A stretch of 64,000 bases of DNA. Source: Phycisphaerales bacterium. GTDB lineage: Bacteria; Planctomycetota; Phycisphaerae; Phycisphaerales; UBA1924. Location of the stretch: contig CANHCQ010000003.1 of the NCBI GenBank assembly GCA_947459215.1, positions 124,001-188,000 on the forward strand. The letters run 5' to 3'. The position numbers were made by a program, and so were the translations under genes. Below the pieces are notes generated by a model. It saw only the letters and a list, made by a program, of their open reading frames with translations, made no database searches and was not told the DNA's origin. Shown here one piece after another: positions 2,237 through 54,147 of this stretch; the first letter of the stretch is position 1; every line of letters starts with the position of its first letter.

Positions 2237-2273
2237 GTCGCGACGAGGCTTGCTTGATTGTGGCGGAGGCCGC

Positions 2274-3563
2274 TCAGCCCTTCTTTTCCTTCCAGGCCTT
2301 CAGCACCTCGGCCTCGCGCTCGCGGGTCATGCCGGCGCGGAGCTTGTCCGACGGCGGCAACTTCGGCGCCGGCTTGCCGGCCTTCTCCGCCTCGGCCACC
2401 AACTGCTTGCCCACGCGTTCGCGGCGTTCGACTTCCTTGGGCCACCACTCCAACGTGTCCTTGCACGTGGCTTTGTAGCTGCGGTAGGTCAGACCCGCAT
2501 CAACCGCTCGCTTGTTGGAACGACGGTGGAAGCCGGCGGACTCGCCGCTGCCGGGGATCGTGATCGGAAGGTCGCCGCCGACGGCGACACCCTGAGCCGC
2601 GAGGAACTCGAGCGGGACCCAAACCGGGGTCGCGGCCTTCGCGCCACCGGCCTCGACGCACGCGTCGATCAGTTGCTTGTTGGTCAGGCCACCCTCCATG
2701 CCGCCGGGGCCGATGGCGTTGAAGACGCCAGTGGTCTTCTTCTCGCAGAGGCGCACGCACCATTCGGCGAGGTCGCGGTTGTCGATGAACTGGACCGGAT
2801 CGGAACCGTCGCCTGGGCAGAGCATTTCCCCGCCCTGGGCGGCACGGACAGGCCAATAGGTGAAGCGGTCCGTGCTGTCGCCGGGGCCGACGATGAAGCC
2901 GGGGCGGACGATCGCACTGCGATCCTTGAAGACCTCCTGCACGGCTTTCTCGCACAGCGCCTTCAGCGGGCCGTAGCGCTCCATCTGCCCGCCCATGTTC
3001 TCGGTGGTGGTGTCCTCGACGGTGCCGAGTTCGTCGTTCTCGTCCGCGGCCTTGTCGCCGTTCTTGTACACGGAAATCGTCGAGATGAAGAGGTAGAAGC
3101 CTGAGTCCTTCAGCAGTTCAGCGCTCGCGCGAACGTGACGGGGATAGAAGCCCGAGGTGTCGATGATGGCGTCGAACTTCTTGCCCTTGAGTTGTTCGAG
3201 GCCCTTGGGCGTGGTCGGGTCGGTTTCCTCGGCGTTCTTGTCGGGGTCGCGGTTGCCGTAGAGCTTCTCGACGTCCTCGATGATGCCGATTCGCTTCTCG
3301 GTGCGGCCGCGGTTGAAGAGCGTGACCTTGTGGCCGCGGGCCTTGGCGTACTCGGCCATCTTGGGCCCGCTGAAGCCGGTGCCGCCGAGGATGAGTAGGG
3401 ACATTGGCTTGCCGGCGCTGAGGTCCGGGGCCGCGGCCTTGGCGACGCGGGCGAGGCCCGAGGCGGCGATCAGTCCCGCGCCGGCGACGAGGGAGATCGC
3501 GCCGAACTCGCGGCGGGAGAGGGATGAAGCGTCGGAAGAAGGGCTGTTCTCGCGTTGGCTCAT
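2274..3563 (-). CDS. Tat-exported NAD-dependent epimerase/dehydratase family protein
   Basis: This 429-residue protein is an extended short-chain dehydrogenase fold. It starts with a twin-arginine signal (SRREF at about residues 16-20, then a hydrophobic stretch ending at AKA). The nucleotide-binding motif GGTGFSG lies near residue 60, with a following basic NRGR that would suit a phosphate-bearing cofactor, and the catalytic pair is YGPLK. The start at 3563 is preceded by GGAG at a good distance; the longer open frame to 3662 lacks this. Tat export of cofactor-binding oxidoreductases is common in planctomycetes, because the enzyme folds around its cofactor before transport. The substrate is unknown, a nucleotide sugar or a related metabolite being possible. 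It is convergent with the zinc receptor gene. Confidence 0.8.
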   Translation of the reverse strand: MSQRENSPSSDASSLSRREFGAISLVAGAGLIAASGLARVAKAAAPDLSAGKPMSLLILGGTGFSGPKMAEYAKARGHKVTLFNRGRTEKRIGIIEDVEKLYGNRDPDKNAEETDPTTPKGLEQLKGKKFDAIIDTSGFYPRHVRASAELLKDSGFYLFISTISVYKNGDKAADENDELGTVEDTTTENMGGQMERYGPLKALCEKAVQEVFKDRSAIVRPGFIVGPGDSTDRFTYWPVRAAQGGEMLCPGDGSDPVQFIDNRDLAEWCVRLCEKKTTGVFNAIGPGGMEGGLTNKQLIDACVEAGGAKAATPVWVPLEFLAAQGVAVGGDLPITIPGSGESAGFHRRSNKRAVDAGLTYRSYKATCKDTLEWWPKEVERRERVGKQLVAEAEKAGKPAPKLPPSDKLRAGMTREREAEVLKAWKEKKG

Positions 3564-47688: not shown

Positions 47689-50600
47689 TTAGTGGAAGTC
47701 GCGTGACGCAACCTCCACATCGGGCAGCGCGTGATCCAGGCTCTCCATGTGATCAACGTGCAGATGAACGACCTCACCCTGCCGTTCGACCTTGCCGCGA
47801 ACTTGCAGAATGTGGCTCTGTCGCGCCACGCGTCGGTACGTCTCGAATGTGTCCGACCACACGATCAGATTCGCGATGCCGCTCTCGTCCTCGAGCGTGA
47901 AGAAGACGACACCTGACGCCGTGCTGGGGCGTTGACGCACAAGCACGAGACCCGCGACCTGCAGGCGACGACCCTGGGGGCAGAGCCGCGGATCGCGCAG
48001 CTCTCCGCAGGGCACAACCCCACCGCTTGCAAGCCTTTCTCGCAGGAACGACATCGGGTGCGCTTTCAGCGAGAGCCCCACGTGCTCGTAGTCTTGCCGC
48101 ACGAGCGTGCTCGGCGCAATCGGCGGCAAGGCGGCGAGGGCCGCGGCGTCTGCAACAGGCAAGACTGACTCCCCACGGAGAGAAGAGGAAGCGATAGACG
48201 GCCCTGTATCTCCACCGTTTCCGTCCTGCTTCACACTGTCCTCACTCGGTGTTTTCTGTGCTATCCGTGGTGAACGGCCTTGATCCTGCGACCAGCCTTC
48301 TTCACAGCCGCCGGCCTCAAACAGCGGCAGCCGCTCGTCCCGCAGCGGCTTGATCTGCCACAACGCCTGCTGGCGTGTCAGCCCCATCGAGCCAAACGCG
48401 TCGGCTTGCGCGAGGCATCGCAGCCCCCGCACCGACACGCCGCTGGCACGCCAGAGTGAGTCCACATCGCGGAATGGTCCGTGCTGCCGAACCGCCGCCG
48501 CGACGCGGTCGGCGTCGTCTTGAGCGAGGCCTTTGACGAGGCGGGTACCGAGGCGGAGGGCGGGCGTGACAAGTGTCGCAGTGGCAGAGTGGCAGAGTGG
48601 CGCAGCAGCTGCGATATCCCGATCCAAGTCACTCATCGCTCCGCATGTATTCACTTTGCCACTCTGCCACTGTGTCACTGTGTCACTCTCTGCTTCCAGC
48701 GAGCAGTCCCACCCACTCCAGTTCACATCCACTCCCCGCACCTCCACGCCGTGCTCCTGCGCGTCGCGGACGATCTGGGCTGGCTGATAGAACCCCATCG
48801 GCTGGCTGTTGATCAGTGCGGCGGCAAACGCCGCGGGGTGGTAGCGCTTCAGCCACGCGGAGTAGTACACGATCAACGCAAAGCTCGCGGCATGCGACTC
48901 CGGGAAGCCGTACTCGCTGAAGCCCTTGATCTGCTCGAAGCAGCGCTCGGCGAACTCGCGCGGATAGCCCTTGGCGATCATGCCGTCCATCAGCTTCTGG
49001 CCGTACTGATAGATCCCGGAGCCCTTGCGCTTCCACGCCGCCATCGACTTGCGCAGCCCGTCGGCCTCGTCGGGCGTGAAGCCTGCGGCCACGATCGCCA
49101 GCTGCATCGCCTGCTCCTGAAACAGCGGTACGCCCAGCGTCCGCCCCAGCACACCCTCGACCTCCGGGCTCGGATACGTCACCGGCTCCTTGCCCTCGCG
49201 CCGGCGCAGGTACGGATGCACCATCCCGCCCTGGATCGGCCCGGGCCGCACGATCGCGACCTCGATCACGAGGTCATAGAAAGTCCGGGGCTTGAGCCGC
49301 GGCAGCATCGACATCTGTGCCCGCGACTCGATCTGGAAAACGCCGACGGTGTCGGCTTTGCAGATCATGTCGTAGACGGCGGGATCTTCGAGGGGGATGG
49401 AGCGTGTTGTGAGCGGGGGAGAGGTGCCGAGGTGTCGAGGTGTCAAGGTGTCAAGGGAAGAGTCCTTCACTTCGTCTGCCGGGCTTCGAGCTTGCGAATC
49501 AGAGCGAAGAGCATGCGGTCGATCTCCTGCAGCATCGCCTGGAGATCCGGCTCTGGATTGATAAGTCCCAGCTCCGACGCGATCTCGAGCTGCGTGGACA
49601 GCTCCGCCTGGGAGCCGCTGGCGATCCGTAAGCCGCGGATGTATTCCGCGGTCGTCTTGCGGTTGTAGCCCTCGGCGATGTTGGACGGAATCGAGACGCT
49701 CGCACGTCGCATCTGCGACGTCAGGCCGAACATCTCTGCTTTTGGCATCTTCTCCGTTGCTCGATACACAAGCTTGCACACTTGCTTGCTCTTCTGCCAG
49801 ACCGTCAAGTCCCGATACGAGTGAATCGCGCTCATCGCCATGCTCCTTTGCAATCTCCGTGGCGGAATCCCTACCGCCCCACTCGGCACCTCGACACCTC
49901 GACACCTCGGCACCTCTCTCATTCACCATCCGCACACACTTCCCCACACACGTCAACATCCCCAGCCCCAGCACGTCCACCTTCAGCATCCCCATCGCGT
50001 CGATGTCGTCCTTGTCCCACTCGATGACGGTGCGGTCCTCCATCGCGGCGTTCTCGATCGGCACCAGCTGGCTCAGCGGGGCCTGCGTGATCACGAAGCC
50101 GCCGACGTGCTGCGACAGGTGGCGCGGGAAGCCCGCGAGTTCGTGGGCCAGTTCGATCACGCGACGGATCGTCGGCTCTCGCGGGTCGAGCCCGATCTCG
50201 CGCACGCGCTCTTCGCTCGGCGGCTCGTGCCAGCGGTCCAGGTTCTTGGCGAGGGCGTCGATGCAATCCTCCGACAAGCCCATCGCCTTACCGACGTCAC
50301 GCACCGCGCTGCGCCCTCGGTACGAGATCACCTCCGCCGTCAATGCCGCTCGCTCACGCCCGTACTTGGCGTAGATGTACTGGATCACCTCCTCGCGGCG
50401 TTCGTGCTCGAAGTCGATGTCGATGTCCGGCGGCTCCTTGCGGGCGCGGCTGATGAACCGCTCGAACAGCAGCTTGAACCGCGACGGATCCACCTCAGTG
50501 ATGCCAAGGCAGTAGCACACCGCTGAGTTCGCAGCGCCGCCTCGCCCTTGGCACAAAATGCCCCGCGACCGCGCGAACCGCACGATGTCGTGGCAGGTGA

Positions 50601-51828
50601 GGAAGTACGTCTCGTAGCCGAGCTCGGCGATGAGGGCGAGTTCGTGCTCGAGAGCGTGGGAGACGGAAGAGGGAATCGGAGGCAAGGTGTCGAGGTGCCG
50701 AGTTGCCGAGGTGTCGCGTGACGACGAATCCGAAGCGAGTACGCGTTGGGGTTGTCCTTCCCTTGGCACCTCGGCACCTTGACACCTGACACCTTGAGAC
50801 CCCCACGCCTCCCCGCCATACCGCTCCGCCGCCCCCTCGTACGCCAACTTCCGCAGATACTGCGTCGGCGTCATCTCCGGCGGGCAGGTCTCCAGGGGGT
50901 ACTGATACTTGATCTGGTCGAGCGAAAAGCCCGCGGCGCGGCGTGCGATCTCCAGCGACCGCTCGATCGCGCCGGGCATACTCGCAAACAACCTCGCCAT
51001 CTCGTCGCCGGGCTTGAGGTGCCGCTCCGCATTCGCCGCCAGACGCAGTCCCGCCTCGTGGATCGTGCAGCCGTGCCGGATGCACGTCACCACATCCTGT
51101 AACGGCCGTCGTTGCCGCACGTGGTAGTGCGCGTCGTTCGCTGCCGCGAGAGGTACGCCGCTGCGCTCGCTCAGCGAACGCAGCGCGGCCAGATGCACAG
51201 CATCGTGTGCCCCGAACCGTACGACCGCAGCCAGGGACATCCGATCGTCATCGAAGATCTCTTTCAGCCGAAACACCGCACGCTCCCACGCCGCGTGATC
51301 CCCGTGCGGCGTGCCGAACGTCTCCGGCGGCATCGCCAAGGCCAGCAGCCCGCGTGCGTGCGCGGCAACATCATCCAGTGTGAGATAGCACTCACCCTTG
51401 GGAGCTCGGCGTTTCCCAAGTGTCAGCAGCGTGCACAGCCGTGCGTATGCGTCGCGGTCTTGTGGGTAGACACAAAGCTCCACGCTCGCGGCCCCCGCCG
51501 GCCCCACAGCCGCTCCGGTCCCGACAGCTTCAATCAGCACAAGGCGGCAGCCGATCACGATCTGTACGTTGTGCTGCCTGGCCGCCACATGGGCGCGGAC
51601 GATACCCGCCAGTGTGTTGCGATCGGCAATCGCGACGGCCCGATAGCCCAACGCCGCAGTTTGCTCGACCAGTTCCTCCGGGTGCGACGCGCCGCGCAGG
51701 AACGAGAAGTTGCTCGTCACTGCGAGCTCTGCGTACGGATGCGTAACCAGCGCAGCGTCGCTCGCCGCCGCCGCGGGCGGGCTGTTGATCGGGTGCGGCT
51801 TGATCTTGTGAAAGACTTTCTCGGGCAT
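47689..51828 (-). CDS. dnaE2: Error-prone DNA polymerase III alpha subunit DnaE2 with in-frame insertions
   Basis: This translesion polymerase completes the imuA-imuB-dnaE2 cassette. It has the PHP domain (LAVTSNFSFLRGASHPEE), catalytic aspartates in PPDIDIDFEH and KVDVLGLGML, the fingers (ADTVGVFQIESRAQMSML), a tandem HhH region and an OB domain near the end. The length is 1379 residues against about 1050-1100 for the family. The excess is explained by four stretches absent from relatives: about residues 345-382, 638-803, 1047-1086 and 1177-1222. Three coincide with the repeat elements at 50684-50795, 49419-49918 and 48572-48688. None breaks the frame and none falls on a catalytic motif. Start follows GAGGTG, 8 bp after imuB. 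Confidence 0.92.
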   Translation of the reverse strand: MPEKVFHKIKPHPINSPPAAAASDAALVTHPYAELAVTSNFSFLRGASHPEELVEQTAALGYRAVAIADRNTLAGIVRAHVAARQHNVQIVIGCRLVLIEAVGTGAAVGPAGAASVELCVYPQDRDAYARLCTLLTLGKRRAPKGECYLTLDDVAAHARGLLALAMPPETFGTPHGDHAAWERAVFRLKEIFDDDRMSLAAVVRFGAHDAVHLAALRSLSERSGVPLAAANDAHYHVRQRRPLQDVVTCIRHGCTIHEAGLRLAANAERHLKPGDEMARLFASMPGAIERSLEIARRAAGFSLDQIKYQYPLETCPPEMTPTQYLRKLAYEGAAERYGGEAWGSQGVRCQGAEVPREGQPQRVLASDSSSRDTSATRHLDTLPPIPSSVSHALEHELALIAELGYETYFLTCHDIVRFARSRGILCQGRGGAANSAVCYCLGITEVDPSRFKLLFERFISRARKEPPDIDIDFEHERREEVIQYIYAKYGRERAALTAEVISYRGRSAVRDVGKAMGLSEDCIDALAKNLDRWHEPPSEERVREIGLDPREPTIRRVIELAHELAGFPRHLSQHVGGFVITQAPLSQLVPIENAAMEDRTVIEWDKDDIDAMGMLKVDVLGLGMLTCVGKCVRMVNERGAEVSRCRGAEWGGRDSATEIAKEHGDERDSLVSGLDGLAEEQASVQACVSSNGEDAKSRDVRPDVADATCERLDSVQHRRGLQPQDDRGIHPRLTDRQRLPGGAVHAARDRVGAGTYQSRAGSPGDAAGDRPHALRSDSQARSPADEVKDSSLDTLTPRHLGTSPPLTTRSIPLEDPAVYDMICKADTVGVFQIESRAQMSMLPRLKPRTFYDLVIEVAIVRPGPIQGGMVHPYLRRREGKEPVTYPSPEVEGVLGRTLGVPLFQEQAMQLAIVAAGFTPDEADGLRKSMAAWKRKGSGIYQYGQKLMDGMIAKGYPREFAERCFEQIKGFSEYGFPESHAASFALIVYYSAWLKRYHPAAFAAALINSQPMGFYQPAQIVRDAQEHGVEVRGVDVNWSGWDCSLEAESDTVTQWQSGKVNTCGAMSDLDRDIAAAAPLCHSATATLVTPALRLGTRLVKGLAQDDADRVAAAVRQHGPFRDVDSLWRASGVSVRGLRCLAQADAFGSMGLTRQQALWQIKPLRDERLPLFEAGGCEEGWSQDQGRSPRIAQKTPSEDSVKQDGNGGDTGPSIASSSLRGESVLPVADAAALAALPPIAPSTLVRQDYEHVGLSLKAHPMSFLRERLASGGVVPCGELRDPRLCPQGRRLQVAGLVLVRQRPSTASGVVFFTLEDESGIANLIVWSDTFETYRRVARQSHILQVRGKVERQGEVVHLHVDHMESLDHALPDVEVASRDFH
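48572..48688. repeat. Miniature octamer-armed element in dnaE2 (AGTGGCA type)
   Basis: The left arm is four tandem 8-mers (AGTGTCGC, AGTGGCAG twice, AGTGGCGC; 48572-48603). The right arm is four 8-mers in the opposite sense (TGCCACTC, TGCCACTG, TGTCACTG, TGTCACTC; 48657-48688). The spacer is 53 bp. The element is 117 bp, a multiple of three, and adds about 40 residues before the conserved ALRLGTRLVKGL. The unit sequence differs from that of the other two elements. Confidence 0.85.
49419..49918 (-). mobile_element. IVS-like element with octamer inverted arms and S23-type gene, inside dnaE2
   Basis: The left arm (49419-49452) is GA plus GAGGTGCC, GAGGTGTC twice and AAGGTGTC. The right arm (49885-49918) is the reverse complement of GA plus GAGGTGCC, GAGGTGTC twice and GAGGTGCC, so 32 of 34 positions pair. 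Between the arms lies a complete four-helix-bundle gene (49467-49835) with its own ribosome binding site. In the dnaE2 frame the element reads through as low-complexity sequence. Inverted repeats around an S23-type gene are the layout of 23S rRNA intervening sequences. No transposase is encoded. Confidence 0.8.
49467..49835 (-). CDS. Four-helix-bundle S23/IVP-type protein nested in dnaE2
   Basis: This 122-residue protein is of the family first found in 23S rRNA intervening sequences (S23, also related in fold to Avd of diversity-generating retroelements). The signature is clear: YRDLTVWQKSKQVCKLVY, FGLTSQMRRASVSIPSNIAEG and a C-terminal pair of helices with QAELSTQLEIASELGLI. It is read on the same strand as dnaE2 but in another frame. 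The start at 49835 is chosen because AAAGGAG stands at the right distance; an ATG at 49841 is too close to it. The molecular role of the family is not established. Confidence 0.88.
   Translation of the reverse strand: MSAIHSYRDLTVWQKSKQVCKLVYRATEKMPKAEMFGLTSQMRRASVSIPSNIAEGYNRKTTAEYIRGLRIASGSQAELSTQLEIASELGLINPEPDLQAMLQEIDRMLFALIRKLEARQTK
50684..50795. repeat. Miniature octamer-armed element in dnaE2 (GAGGTGYC type)
   Basis: The left arm has AAGGTGTC, GAGGTGCC, GAGTTGCC and GAGGTGTC (50684-50715). The right arm has GGCACCTC, GGCACCTT, GACACCT and GACACCTT (50765-50795), the complement of the same unit family. The spacer is 49 bp with no gene. It adds about 40 residues between ERYGGEAW and PSSVSHALEHELALI. 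The unit is the one used by the 500-bp element 770 bp away, so this may be a cargo-free derivative. Confidence 0.85.
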
Positions 51829-51836
51829 TGTGCACC

Positions 51837-53420
51837 TCAGGCCGACACGCCATGGAGGAACCAGCGGGTGGACTCACGGAAGATCCACAGCCATCGCCCG
51901 CGGCTGTCACGGACGTGGAAGTAGTCGCGATTCGGAGCGCCGCCGCTCGCGTCGGCCCACCACTCGGGCGCGAGTCGCTCCGGCCCGAGGCATGCGTTCA
52001 CGCTCAACTCCGAATCGCCCTCACGCTGGCCTCCGGATTCATCCCAGAAGACGCGGCAGACCGGGCCGTCGGGCGTGATCGCCAAGACGCGGATCGGCAC
52101 CGGCCGCGGCAGCAGCAACGCGGGCCGCACGACCGGCGCGAGGGCGGCGGGCTCCGGAGCCTCCGCATCGATCGCGGGGCGTGACGACGACGCCCGCTCG
52201 GGAATGTGCGACGCGACCAGGTGCGCCCGTCGCACCCGCTCGCGGCCGAGACGGTTCGCCAGCACGTCGATGAGTTCGCCGGCGTCCGCGTGATGCGCCG
52301 TGTCGGCGTGAGCGGGATCGGTGATGAGCTGCTCGTGCGTCAATCGCCCGACCCACACCGCGGTGAGCGCGACCGACTCGACGCCGTGGCCGAGTTGGAC
52401 GCGTTCGAGCCGCGGGCGCAGCATGTTCCAGAGATGGCGGTGGTTCCGCGTGGGCCGCGCGACCATGAGCGTGAGCGTCTCGTCGGGGAGATCGATCCGA
52501 CCAAGGGTGACGTCGAGCCGGCGCACGCCGCTCTCTCGGGCATGGACCTTGGCGAGCAGTTCCTCAAGCAAGCGGCGGCAGCAGAGCTCGATCGATTCGG
52601 CGTGCGTGGTCGGACCGTCGAAGGTTCGGTGCACGCACAAGGGCGGCTCTTTGCGCAGCGCGTGCAGCGGCTCGATGGCCTGCCCGAGCGCCTGATCGAT
52701 GCGCAGCAGCACCGCGCCGCCGTAGCGGGGGGCGAGCGATGCCCGTGGCAGCTTCAACAGCTCCCCGACGCGGCGGACGCCGACGAGCGCGAGATCGTCG
52801 ACCACTCTTCTCGACAAACGCAGCGCCTCGATCGGCAGCGGCTCGAGCTCGCCACGCACGCCCGCGTCATCCACCCGCAGCGGCGACCGCGGCCCGTAGC
52901 GAGCCAACGCCCACGCACTCCCGCCGCTGGGCGCGATCGCCACACGGGCACGAAAGCCCATCGCGGCGAGCGATTGCAGAGCCAGCGACGCGAGCCTCGC
53001 CTCGCCGCGGAACACCACCTCGCAGCCACCGACATCGAGCTGCAGGCCGTACGAGAGCGCGGCGTCGTGGTCGAGCAGATCGCGTCCACGTTTGTCATGC
53101 GACTCCTCCGGCTCGTCATCGACCGCGACGATGGGTGCCAGCCGCTCGGCCCAGAGCGCCAGCACCCGCAGCATCCGCCGCGGCTGAAGATCATCGAGAT
53201 CGGCGCTGCGGGGCTCGGCATCGAGCAGTGCCCGAGCCTGGCTGAGCGGCAAGCCCGGGCGCACGCCCGCCGCCCGCGCCCGCTCGCAGCAGCACGCGAC
53301 GACGCGTTTGCGGGCGTCGGTGCGCAGGATGAGGATGGGGCGCTGGTCAGGCGCTCTGTCGCGTCGGCGCAGCGCATCGACCGGCAGCATCGGCAACCAG
53401 ATGGACATCACCCGTCGCAT
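51837..53420 (-). CDS. imuB: Y-family polymerase-like mutasome subunit ImuB
   Basis: This 527-residue inactive Y-family polymerase relative links DnaE2 to the beta clamp. It begins SIWLPMLPVDALRRRD, as ImuB proteins do, and contains the CCCERARAAGVRPGLPLSQARAL segment of the palm/fingers. The acidic catalytic residues of active Pol IV/V are not in place. A little-finger-like region and a C-terminal part of about 130 residues follow. Its start overlaps the end of imuA by 74 bp, and dnaE2 starts 8 bp after its stop, so the three genes form one operon. Confidence 0.93.
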   Translation of the reverse strand: MRRVMSIWLPMLPVDALRRRDRAPDQRPILILRTDARKRVVACCCERARAAGVRPGLPLSQARALLDAEPRSADLDDLQPRRMLRVLALWAERLAPIVAVDDEPEESHDKRGRDLLDHDAALSYGLQLDVGGCEVVFRGEARLASLALQSLAAMGFRARVAIAPSGGSAWALARYGPRSPLRVDDAGVRGELEPLPIEALRLSRRVVDDLALVGVRRVGELLKLPRASLAPRYGGAVLLRIDQALGQAIEPLHALRKEPPLCVHRTFDGPTTHAESIELCCRRLLEELLAKVHARESGVRRLDVTLGRIDLPDETLTLMVARPTRNHRHLWNMLRPRLERVQLGHGVESVALTAVWVGRLTHEQLITDPAHADTAHHADAGELIDVLANRLGRERVRRAHLVASHIPERASSSRPAIDAEAPEPAALAPVVRPALLLPRPVPIRVLAITPDGPVCRVFWDESGGQREGDSELSVNACLGPERLAPEWWADASGGAPNRDYFHVRDSRGRWLWIFRESTRWFLHGVSA

Positions 53421-54147
53421 GGTCTAACCGCACGATCCACGATCGCGCGTCCTCCGGAACAGGCCGCAGTCCCTTGCAGCGCAGCAGTTCGAGCCTCCAA
53501 TGCGGATCCGGACACAACACCGTCGAATCCACCCCGGGCTGAGGCGTCACCAGCCACCGCGTCGCCGCGGCCGAGAGCTCGCGACGTTCCCAGGACGGGC
53601 GGGCGAGAAACGCGATCCCGCCAGACTCCGCCGCCGCCAGTTGCAGCCGACGCGAGTCGCTCATCTTCAAGCCCGAGGCGTCGGCCACCACGCACGCCAC
53701 CGCACCGCTGCGCAGCGCGAGCTCGGTCGCCCACACCCGTTGATCGCTCGTCGACGCATCGACGAAGAGATGCCGCTCCAGCGTGTCGCCACGGGCGAGC
53801 GCGACCGGGTACGGCCAGCAGCGCGCCCCGATCCAGACAACCTCGGCCCCGCGACTCGCATCCCTCGCGGCCCGGGCCGCACGCCGCGCCAGATGGCTGA
53901 GAACCGTCAACGGCGCCAACCAGTTCGGTCGCTCCGCCGCGTCGCCGAACCACTCATGCACACACCCGCACGCCAGCCCCCCCGCACCGCTCCACACTCC
54001 CGCCGACTCCAACGGCAGCAACACTCGATCCATCGCGTCCCATCCGGTCCGCACGAGACGAGCCGCGACGTGCCCCGGCCGCTCCAACGCAGCAATCGCT
54101 GCAGCCAACTCCTCGCGGCTTTGATTGGATGGACCACTTGATCGCAT
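53347..54147 (-). CDS. imuA: SOS mutasome protein ImuA
   Basis: This 266-residue RecA-like protein is the first gene of the cassette. It has the features of ImuA: GGLACGCVHEWFG in place of a strict Walker A, WIGARCWPYP, and VWATELALRSGAVACVVAD with LKMSDSRRLQLAAAESG. ImuA is needed for DnaE2-dependent damage tolerance and mutagenesis. The ATG at 54145-54147 lies inside a 45-bp palindrome that also contains a promoter-like pair, so the message may start at or very near the AUG. Confidence 0.9.
   Translation of the reverse strand: MRSSGPSNQSREELAAAIAALERPGHVAARLVRTGWDAMDRVLLPLESAGVWSGAGGLACGCVHEWFGDAAERPNWLAPLTVLSHLARRAARAARDASRGAEVVWIGARCWPYPVALARGDTLERHLFVDASTSDQRVWATELALRSGAVACVVADASGLKMSDSRRLQLAAAESGGIAFLARPSWERRELSAAATRWLVTPQPGVDSTVLCPDPHWRLELLRCKGLRPVPEDARSWIVRLDHATGDVHLVADAAGRCAAPTRQSA

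Follow-up and report, generated by a model that had tools for sequence, protein, structure and literature searches.

We found that a single S23 gene, framed by inverted arrays of tandem octamers, sits within the gene of the error-prone DNA polymerase DnaE2 in a Phycisphaerales bacterium. It is probably a minimal mobile element, made of one S23 gene between inverted 7- or 8-base arrays that are recognised by the S23 protein itself. The element is one member of a large and widespread class of S23-array elements, and this class points to a little-recognised kind of mobile DNA. We know of no function assigned to S23 proteins and of no catalytic domain in them, and the short dispersed 7- and 8-base repeats have no agreed origin.

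The S23 element and its host gene

The window, the whole 64-kb stretch of DNA that was analysed, belongs to a genome assembly of 3.66 Mb in 47 contigs (G000). Its relevant features are:

47689-51828, minus strand: dnaE2 (imuC), error-prone DNA polymerase, 1379 aa (NF004225; PF07733, PF17657, PF14579, PF02811, PF01336)
48572-48679: gene-less inverted octamer pair, unit GTGGCAGA, arms 48572-48599 and 48652-48679, in-frame in dnaE2
49419-49455: arm on the downstream side of the S23 gene, an octamer array 92% complementary to the arm at 49882-49918
49467-49835, minus strand: S23 four-helix-bundle gene, 122 aa (PF05635, TIGR02436)
49843-49849, minus strand: AAAGGAG, probable ribosome binding site of the S23 gene, read directly from the sequence
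49882-49918: arm on the upstream side of the S23 gene, an array with the octamer unit GAGGTGTC, rich in G when read on the S23 strand
50685-50787: gene-less inverted octamer pair, unit GAGGTGTC, arms 50685-50711 and 50761-50787, in-frame in dnaE2
51837-53420, minus strand: gene of an ImuB-like polymerase of the Y family (weak matches to PF00817/PF11799 and to Pol IV models), which we take to be ImuB and which lies upstream in the cassette
53347-54147, minus strand: ImuA gene (NF033429, E = 5.9e-17, under the model cut-off)

An earlier note, made from the letters of the window, had placed an S23 gene between inverted octamer arrays inside dnaE2. This arrangement was confirmed. The gene matches PF05635 (Pfam 23S_rRNA_IVP) with an E value of 4.5e-35 and NCBIfam TIGR02436 with 3e-35, and an alternative start is found at an ATG at 49841. 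S23 proteins carry a conserved SNIAEG motif. The two arms of tandem octamers are 37 nt each, 92% complementary and 426 nt apart. Direct reading also bore out that the S23 gene is nested on the strand of dnaE2 (minus) in a different reading frame and is preceded by AAAGGAG. The DnaE2 frame (NF004225, 1382.7 bits) stays open through all three inserted elements. A Pfam scan of DnaE2 found only polymerase-type domains and no intein domain.

Within the window, a scan for array pairs with periods of 6-9 and a partner no more than 700 bases away yielded only three inverted pairs, all of them in dnaE2: the arms of the S23 element (49419-49918) and the two gene-less pairs. Residues ~339-384, 638-790 and 1048-1087 of DnaE2 are missing from most aligned relatives, and both gene-less pairs are extra stretches in the same comparison. 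A further surplus over the relatives, with no clear arrays, was noticed at residues ~1178-1230.

The octamer pattern has 67 matches in G000 and the reversed pattern 5. Paired by eye, they include seven gene-less inverted GAGGTGTC pairs: three on contig C8, one each on C15, C2 and C3, and the one at 50685-50787. Copies of the arms with and without an S23 gene, which the earlier note had suggested looking for, are thus present in the genome, and the gene-less ones have ends like those of the gene-bearing copy, as in MITE-type elements. They look like non-autonomous derivatives of S23 elements. Two weak S23 copies of G000 were not placed by the HMM and have no octamer arrays. The two weaker PF05635 copies of this genome listed as L049 and L050, without octamer arrays, are perhaps S23-like genes with another role.

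Empty and filled sites

In the alignment of DnaE2 with relatives, which has 19 usable rows of 21 (G013 and G030 were left out for wrong-strand frames), the loop that holds the element is a linker of 43-51 residues in 12 of the 19 rows, compared with 206 residues in the DnaE2 of the window. A query with the empty loop against 150 genomes of the family matched without a break at 62 loci in 60 genomes and gave a split match in 25; 18 further genomes were matched weakly, as a replicative DnaE would be. An S23 gene fills the gap in 20 of the 25 split cases, that is, in 20 of the 85 family genomes with the site. The S23 scan covered these 20; the other five gaps measure, by arithmetic, ~78-126 bp in four genomes and ~423 bp in G017.

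A second site was found on Nostoc plasmids. Two plasmids of Nostoc sp. C057 run from a TraM-like gene to the next gene without the element, with 93-95% identity to the query, and the same site holds an S23 element with GGGAACA arms in plasmids of Nostoc sp. C052 and N. edaphicum. In pNsp_c of ATCC 53789, degenerate inverted repeats of GGGAA type are seen by eye at this site, with no S23 gene. About 40 bases of the empty site are missing from the filled one; the difference between them is therefore more than an insertion with both flanks left intact. No clear target-site duplication was seen when the empty and filled Nostoc sites, which differ by these ~40 bases, were compared by eye. Two further Nostoc plasmids (L344, L345) have other inserts at this intergenic site, one of them with AT-rich inverted repeats.

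S23 elements form a widespread class

Inverted arms are a regular property of S23 loci. In the family of the window, searching within 250 bases on either side of S23 revealed them at 88 of 95 placed loci, compared with none of 64 windows shifted along the same loci and 17 of 300 pairs of flanks taken from different loci. The best period between 5 and 11 was 7 at 53 of these 88 loci and 8 at 35, with no other value and two ambiguous rows. The family set of 97 loci consists of the 30 best-scoring in the S23 search, 60 picked by hand, four matches from the window's own genome and L081-L083; L190 was picked, and L081-L083 were taken, for lying in dnaE2. Two loci, L003 and L004, were not placed by the HMM and are outside the 95 counted.

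Named genomes gave a similar picture. Among the best 80 of 590 loci, 79 of which were counted (the flank of L231 is too short), 65 carry inverted arms, compared with 6 of 273 shifted windows and 19 of 300 cross-locus pairs; they cover 14 named phyla. The period is 8 at 39 loci, 7 at 25 and 6 at one, so that 64 of the 65 have 7 or 8. Arms were below the threshold at seven of the 95 placed family loci and at 14 of the 79 named loci, ten of the latter in Bacteroidota. At six loci on cyanobacterial plasmids, paired heptamer arms are clear in three and below the threshold in three. A search for S23 in phages gave no match.

Taken together, the empty dnaE2 sites, the further copies and the arms around homologous S23 genes support the proposal of the earlier note that a mobile element has entered an mRNA gene. 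That note had named the lack of empty sites, of further copies or of arms at homologues as grounds for giving the proposal up; none of these applies, since all three were found.

S23 proteins are coupled to their arrays

On a tree of S23 proteins (104 columns, 88 rows, many forks open), the array period changes 7 times, whereas shuffled periods give a mean of 27.8, and 0 of 500 shuffles were as low. With the rows nested in dnaE genes removed, 7 changes compare with 17.7 in shuffles, the minimum of 300 shuffles being 12. Across genera, S23 similarity correlates with similarity of the array unit (r = 0.36; 0.52 for heptamers and 0.32 for octamers; 0 of 2000 permutations in each case).

The coupling is also seen in array numbers. 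We compared 20 genomes for four units, where a carrier is a genome with an S23 element of that unit among those of its S23 loci that were inspected, which are a part of them. Arrays of GAGGTGTC number 67, 112, 31, 24 and 11 in the carriers and zero in 9 of the 15 others (p = 0.002). For GGGGCAAA, 70 and 110 arrays in the carriers compare with at most 8 elsewhere (p = 0.008). Arrays of AGGCACGG are more numerous in carriers (p = 0.0006); the reversed-pattern control is void for this unit, because its reverse is the same unit. GAGACGGA arrays are also more numerous in carriers (p = 0.016), with two high non-carriers. Some genomes that are not known as carriers are rich in arrays as well: G127 and G102 for GAGACGGA, and G002 and G143 for GAGGTGTC, the GAGGTGTC counts reaching 41 and 38 in two of the 15.

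Most likely, the S23 protein is the mobility factor of its own element and recognises the arrays. It would do so on DNA or RNA and promote the copying both of its own element and of the gene-less derivatives, and the joining chemistry would come from host factors.

An unlikely but not implausible alternative is that a RAYT-type Y1 transposase or a reverse transcriptase acts in trans to move the arrays, while S23 is a passenger or has an accessory role, the latter overlapping with the reading given above. The Y1_Tnp domain was detected in 73 of 96 S23 genomes and in 28 of 54 others (p = 0.0036), which speaks for this alternative. Avd, which is related to S23, has a reverse transcriptase as its partner, according to PMC10053308, which also gives the kinship of PF05635 to Avd. 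However, the loci of the associated Y1 genes carry different repeats, and on this ground Y1 was not retained as the mover. Among 20 Y1 loci picked from among the matches listed (L315-L334), none has paired 7- or 8-base arrays around the gene, the arrangement by which a REPIN/RAYT system would be recognised; one, L316, has a one-sided heptamer run, and 18 have inverted repeats of a different, palindromic kind. Reverse transcriptase was detected in only 19 of the 96 S23 genomes and shows no association with them (p = 0.83), and we rejected it as the mover for this reason. In 5 of the 20 genomes with an S23 gene nested in dnaE2, several of the assemblies being incomplete, neither Y1 nor reverse transcriptase was detected. 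Moreover, the coupling of S23 to its units is not expected of a passenger, which disfavours that role.

In REPIN/RAYT systems a single gene goes with its cognate repeats, and copies lacking the gene are scattered through the genome. The S23 elements resemble them in working, having one gene, cognate repeats and gene-less copies, but they are not members of that group: the protein family is different, REPINs are palindromes, and the Y1 genes found here are accompanied by other repeats. The likeness to Avd of diversity-generating retroelements lies in a related fold family, with bAvd and Avd models matching below their cut-offs. Unlike those retroelements, S23 genes mostly occur where no reverse transcriptase was detected (77 of 96 genomes).

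A probable lineage attached to the DnaE2 loop

Twenty-two nested cases were available: the 20 family genomes, the dnaE1-like case G162 and the named genome of L256. Their S23 genes are all free of stops in the matched range. All 22 fall among the 34 rows of one octamer clade, and nesting changes 4 times on the tree compared with a mean of 20 in shuffles.

These data can be read as an old vertical insertion, in which the element entered dnaE2 once in an ancestor and was inherited, lost many times and left with drifting arms; it would then have no bearing on movement. The same loop is occupied in 20 genomes, and the S23 gene has the same phase in 20 of the 21 sense cases. Well-supported branches of the S23 tree are compatible with a single origin of nesting, and an eight-row clade with a support of 93 is entirely nested. 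On the other hand, S23 distances are uncorrelated with host-flank distances, although these Mantel tests, with ~100 columns, have little power: r is 0.07 for the full set, a value reached or exceeded in 942 of 5000 permutations, 0.05 (1811 of 5000) when G002 and G162 are left out, and -0.09 in a subset of nine genomes. The array units differ among the nested elements, one copy is antisense to dnaE2 (G102), one lies in an apparent dnaE1, and free copies of the same octamer clade occur outside dnaE. The site is unbroken in 60 of the 85 family genomes. We consider the vertical history quite unlikely.

The same facts suggest instead that the nested elements are likely a site-attached, homing-like lineage that moves between hosts: their S23 genes are mostly of one octamer lineage, yet with distances that do not follow those of the hosts. 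Such a lineage would spread between hosts into a single DnaE2 site.

The element in the apparent replicative dnaE1 (L311, contig C8 of G162), a gene assigned from its sequence, lies in a loop homologous to the DnaE2 site, and its host frame is open. Another insert in DnaE2, of ~810 bp (L314, contig C93 of G099, 2265-3022), contains S23 and extra array blocks and is perhaps an element within an element.

The host frame is open through the element

In 21 of the 22 nested cases, the host frame is open and the length of the gap is a multiple of 3. The exception is G002, where dnaE2 is frameshifted and S23 has no stops. By comparison, of 130 elements outside dnaE only 2 have an open +2 frame relative to S23, whereas all 15 sense-nested elements of that set do. 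The codon-position comparison is a weak one, with only seven non-nested pairs, chosen by an arbitrary rule. An open frame and a length that is a multiple of 3 argue for DnaE2 being translated through the element rather than for its removal from the RNA. Translation straight through would give DnaE2 a linker of ~160 extra residues, and S23 would be translated separately on the dnaE2 message, starting at a ribosome binding site of its own. We propose that two properties explain why the element is kept in dnaE2: it has no stops in the +2 frame relative to S23, and it is of a fitting length. This is a form of dual coding, in which a mobile-looking element is retained in a mutagenic polymerase and leaves the host frame open.

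The earlier note had also suggested that pairing of the arms creates a long stem in the dnaE2 message where RNase III could cut, so that the message is fragmented or regulated, as in an intervening sequence (IVS) of rRNA. This is compatible with an S23 protein that recognises its arrays. RNA folding of 49400-49940 on the minus strand gives a long stem formed by the arms and a loop that holds the S23 gene (z = -6.4; 0 of 100 shuffles equally stable). S23-bearing IVSs of 23S rRNA are described in PMC4990558 as having terminal complementary arms and being cleaved by RNase III, and according to the same paper a mobile origin had been proposed by earlier authors. However, the open frames of the nested cases set them apart from elements elsewhere, and one nested S23 gene is antisense to dnaE2. 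On the sense strand, G-U mismatches between the arms do not outnumber A-C ones (102 vs 115), so there is no sign of selection on RNA pairing itself, and the lack of a strand bias to G-U means that RNA is not favoured over DNA as the recognised form. An Rfam scan found no rRNA in the window, and none in the 80 named S23 loci, many of which are from metagenome assemblies that often have no rRNA operons. We regard an IVS-like RNA element as improbable.

The description of the element as a relative of rRNA IVSs therefore stands at the level of the protein family (S23, PF05635) and does not extend to the location. IVSs of 23S rRNA with an S23 ORF are known from Coxiella and Leptospira. The plan of one S23 gene between complementary arms is shared, and the size is similar (428 nt for the Coxiella IVS). 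In contrast to a 23S rRNA IVS, the element here is in a protein gene with the host frame open, has arms of tandem 7- or 8-base units and has many gene-less relatives. It shares the IVS plan but is not an IVS proper, because the defining location in 23S rRNA is absent. A true intron, excised from the dnaE2 RNA with ligation of the flanks, would fit a conserved host gene, a single carried gene and arms able to bring the ends together, but is scarcely credible: splicing needs neither an open host frame nor a multiple of 3, both seen in 21 of 22 cases with a broken dnaE2 as the exception, and Rfam models run against the window at gathering scores gave no group I or II intron, a tRNA being the sole match.

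In-frame insertion into protein genes, as seen here, is known from the Rickettsia palindromic elements, which are not known to have an S23 gene or octamer arrays.

Relation to dispersed repeats

Tandem hepta- and octanucleotides are described in PMC4692102 and PMC2700814: GGGAATC in Xanthomonas, heptamers in Nostoc, and hepta- and octamer sites in Geobacter metallireducens. As described there, they are like the arrays of S23 elements in often having four tandem units, in often forming opposite-strand pairs and in being dispersed, in Geobacter also within genes. They are read in these texts as quadruplex or regulator sites, and the Xanthomonas paper, one of the two, reports generally no association with mobile elements. 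Neither 'S23' nor 'four helix' occurs in the texts of the two papers. Among the matches listed of a literature search, which covered titles and the openings of abstracts and included few subscription papers and no bioRxiv preprints, no publication links S23 with 7- or 8-base arrays; of the papers searched, only 4 contain any of five S23 family names.

A wider, joint reading can be put forward tentatively, with somewhat less than an even chance of being right as a whole. The S23 elements may be a pan-bacterial class of transposable elements that lack a recognisable transposase and whose S23 protein reads an array of 7- or 8-base units. The hepta- and octanucleotide repeats dispersed in cyanobacteria, xanthomonads and Geobacter would then be gene-less derivatives and the rRNA IVSs rare relatives, and one octamer lineage would be homing to the palm loop of DnaE2, once of DnaE1, where the element is dual-coding. 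The coupling of S23 to its arrays across genera ties S23 proteins to the dispersed 7- and 8-base repeats, and both can be tested with one small protein and one oligonucleotide. The only solved structures related by sequence to S23 are 2gsc (XCC0516, an S23 protein of Xanthomonas campestris) and 2rld.
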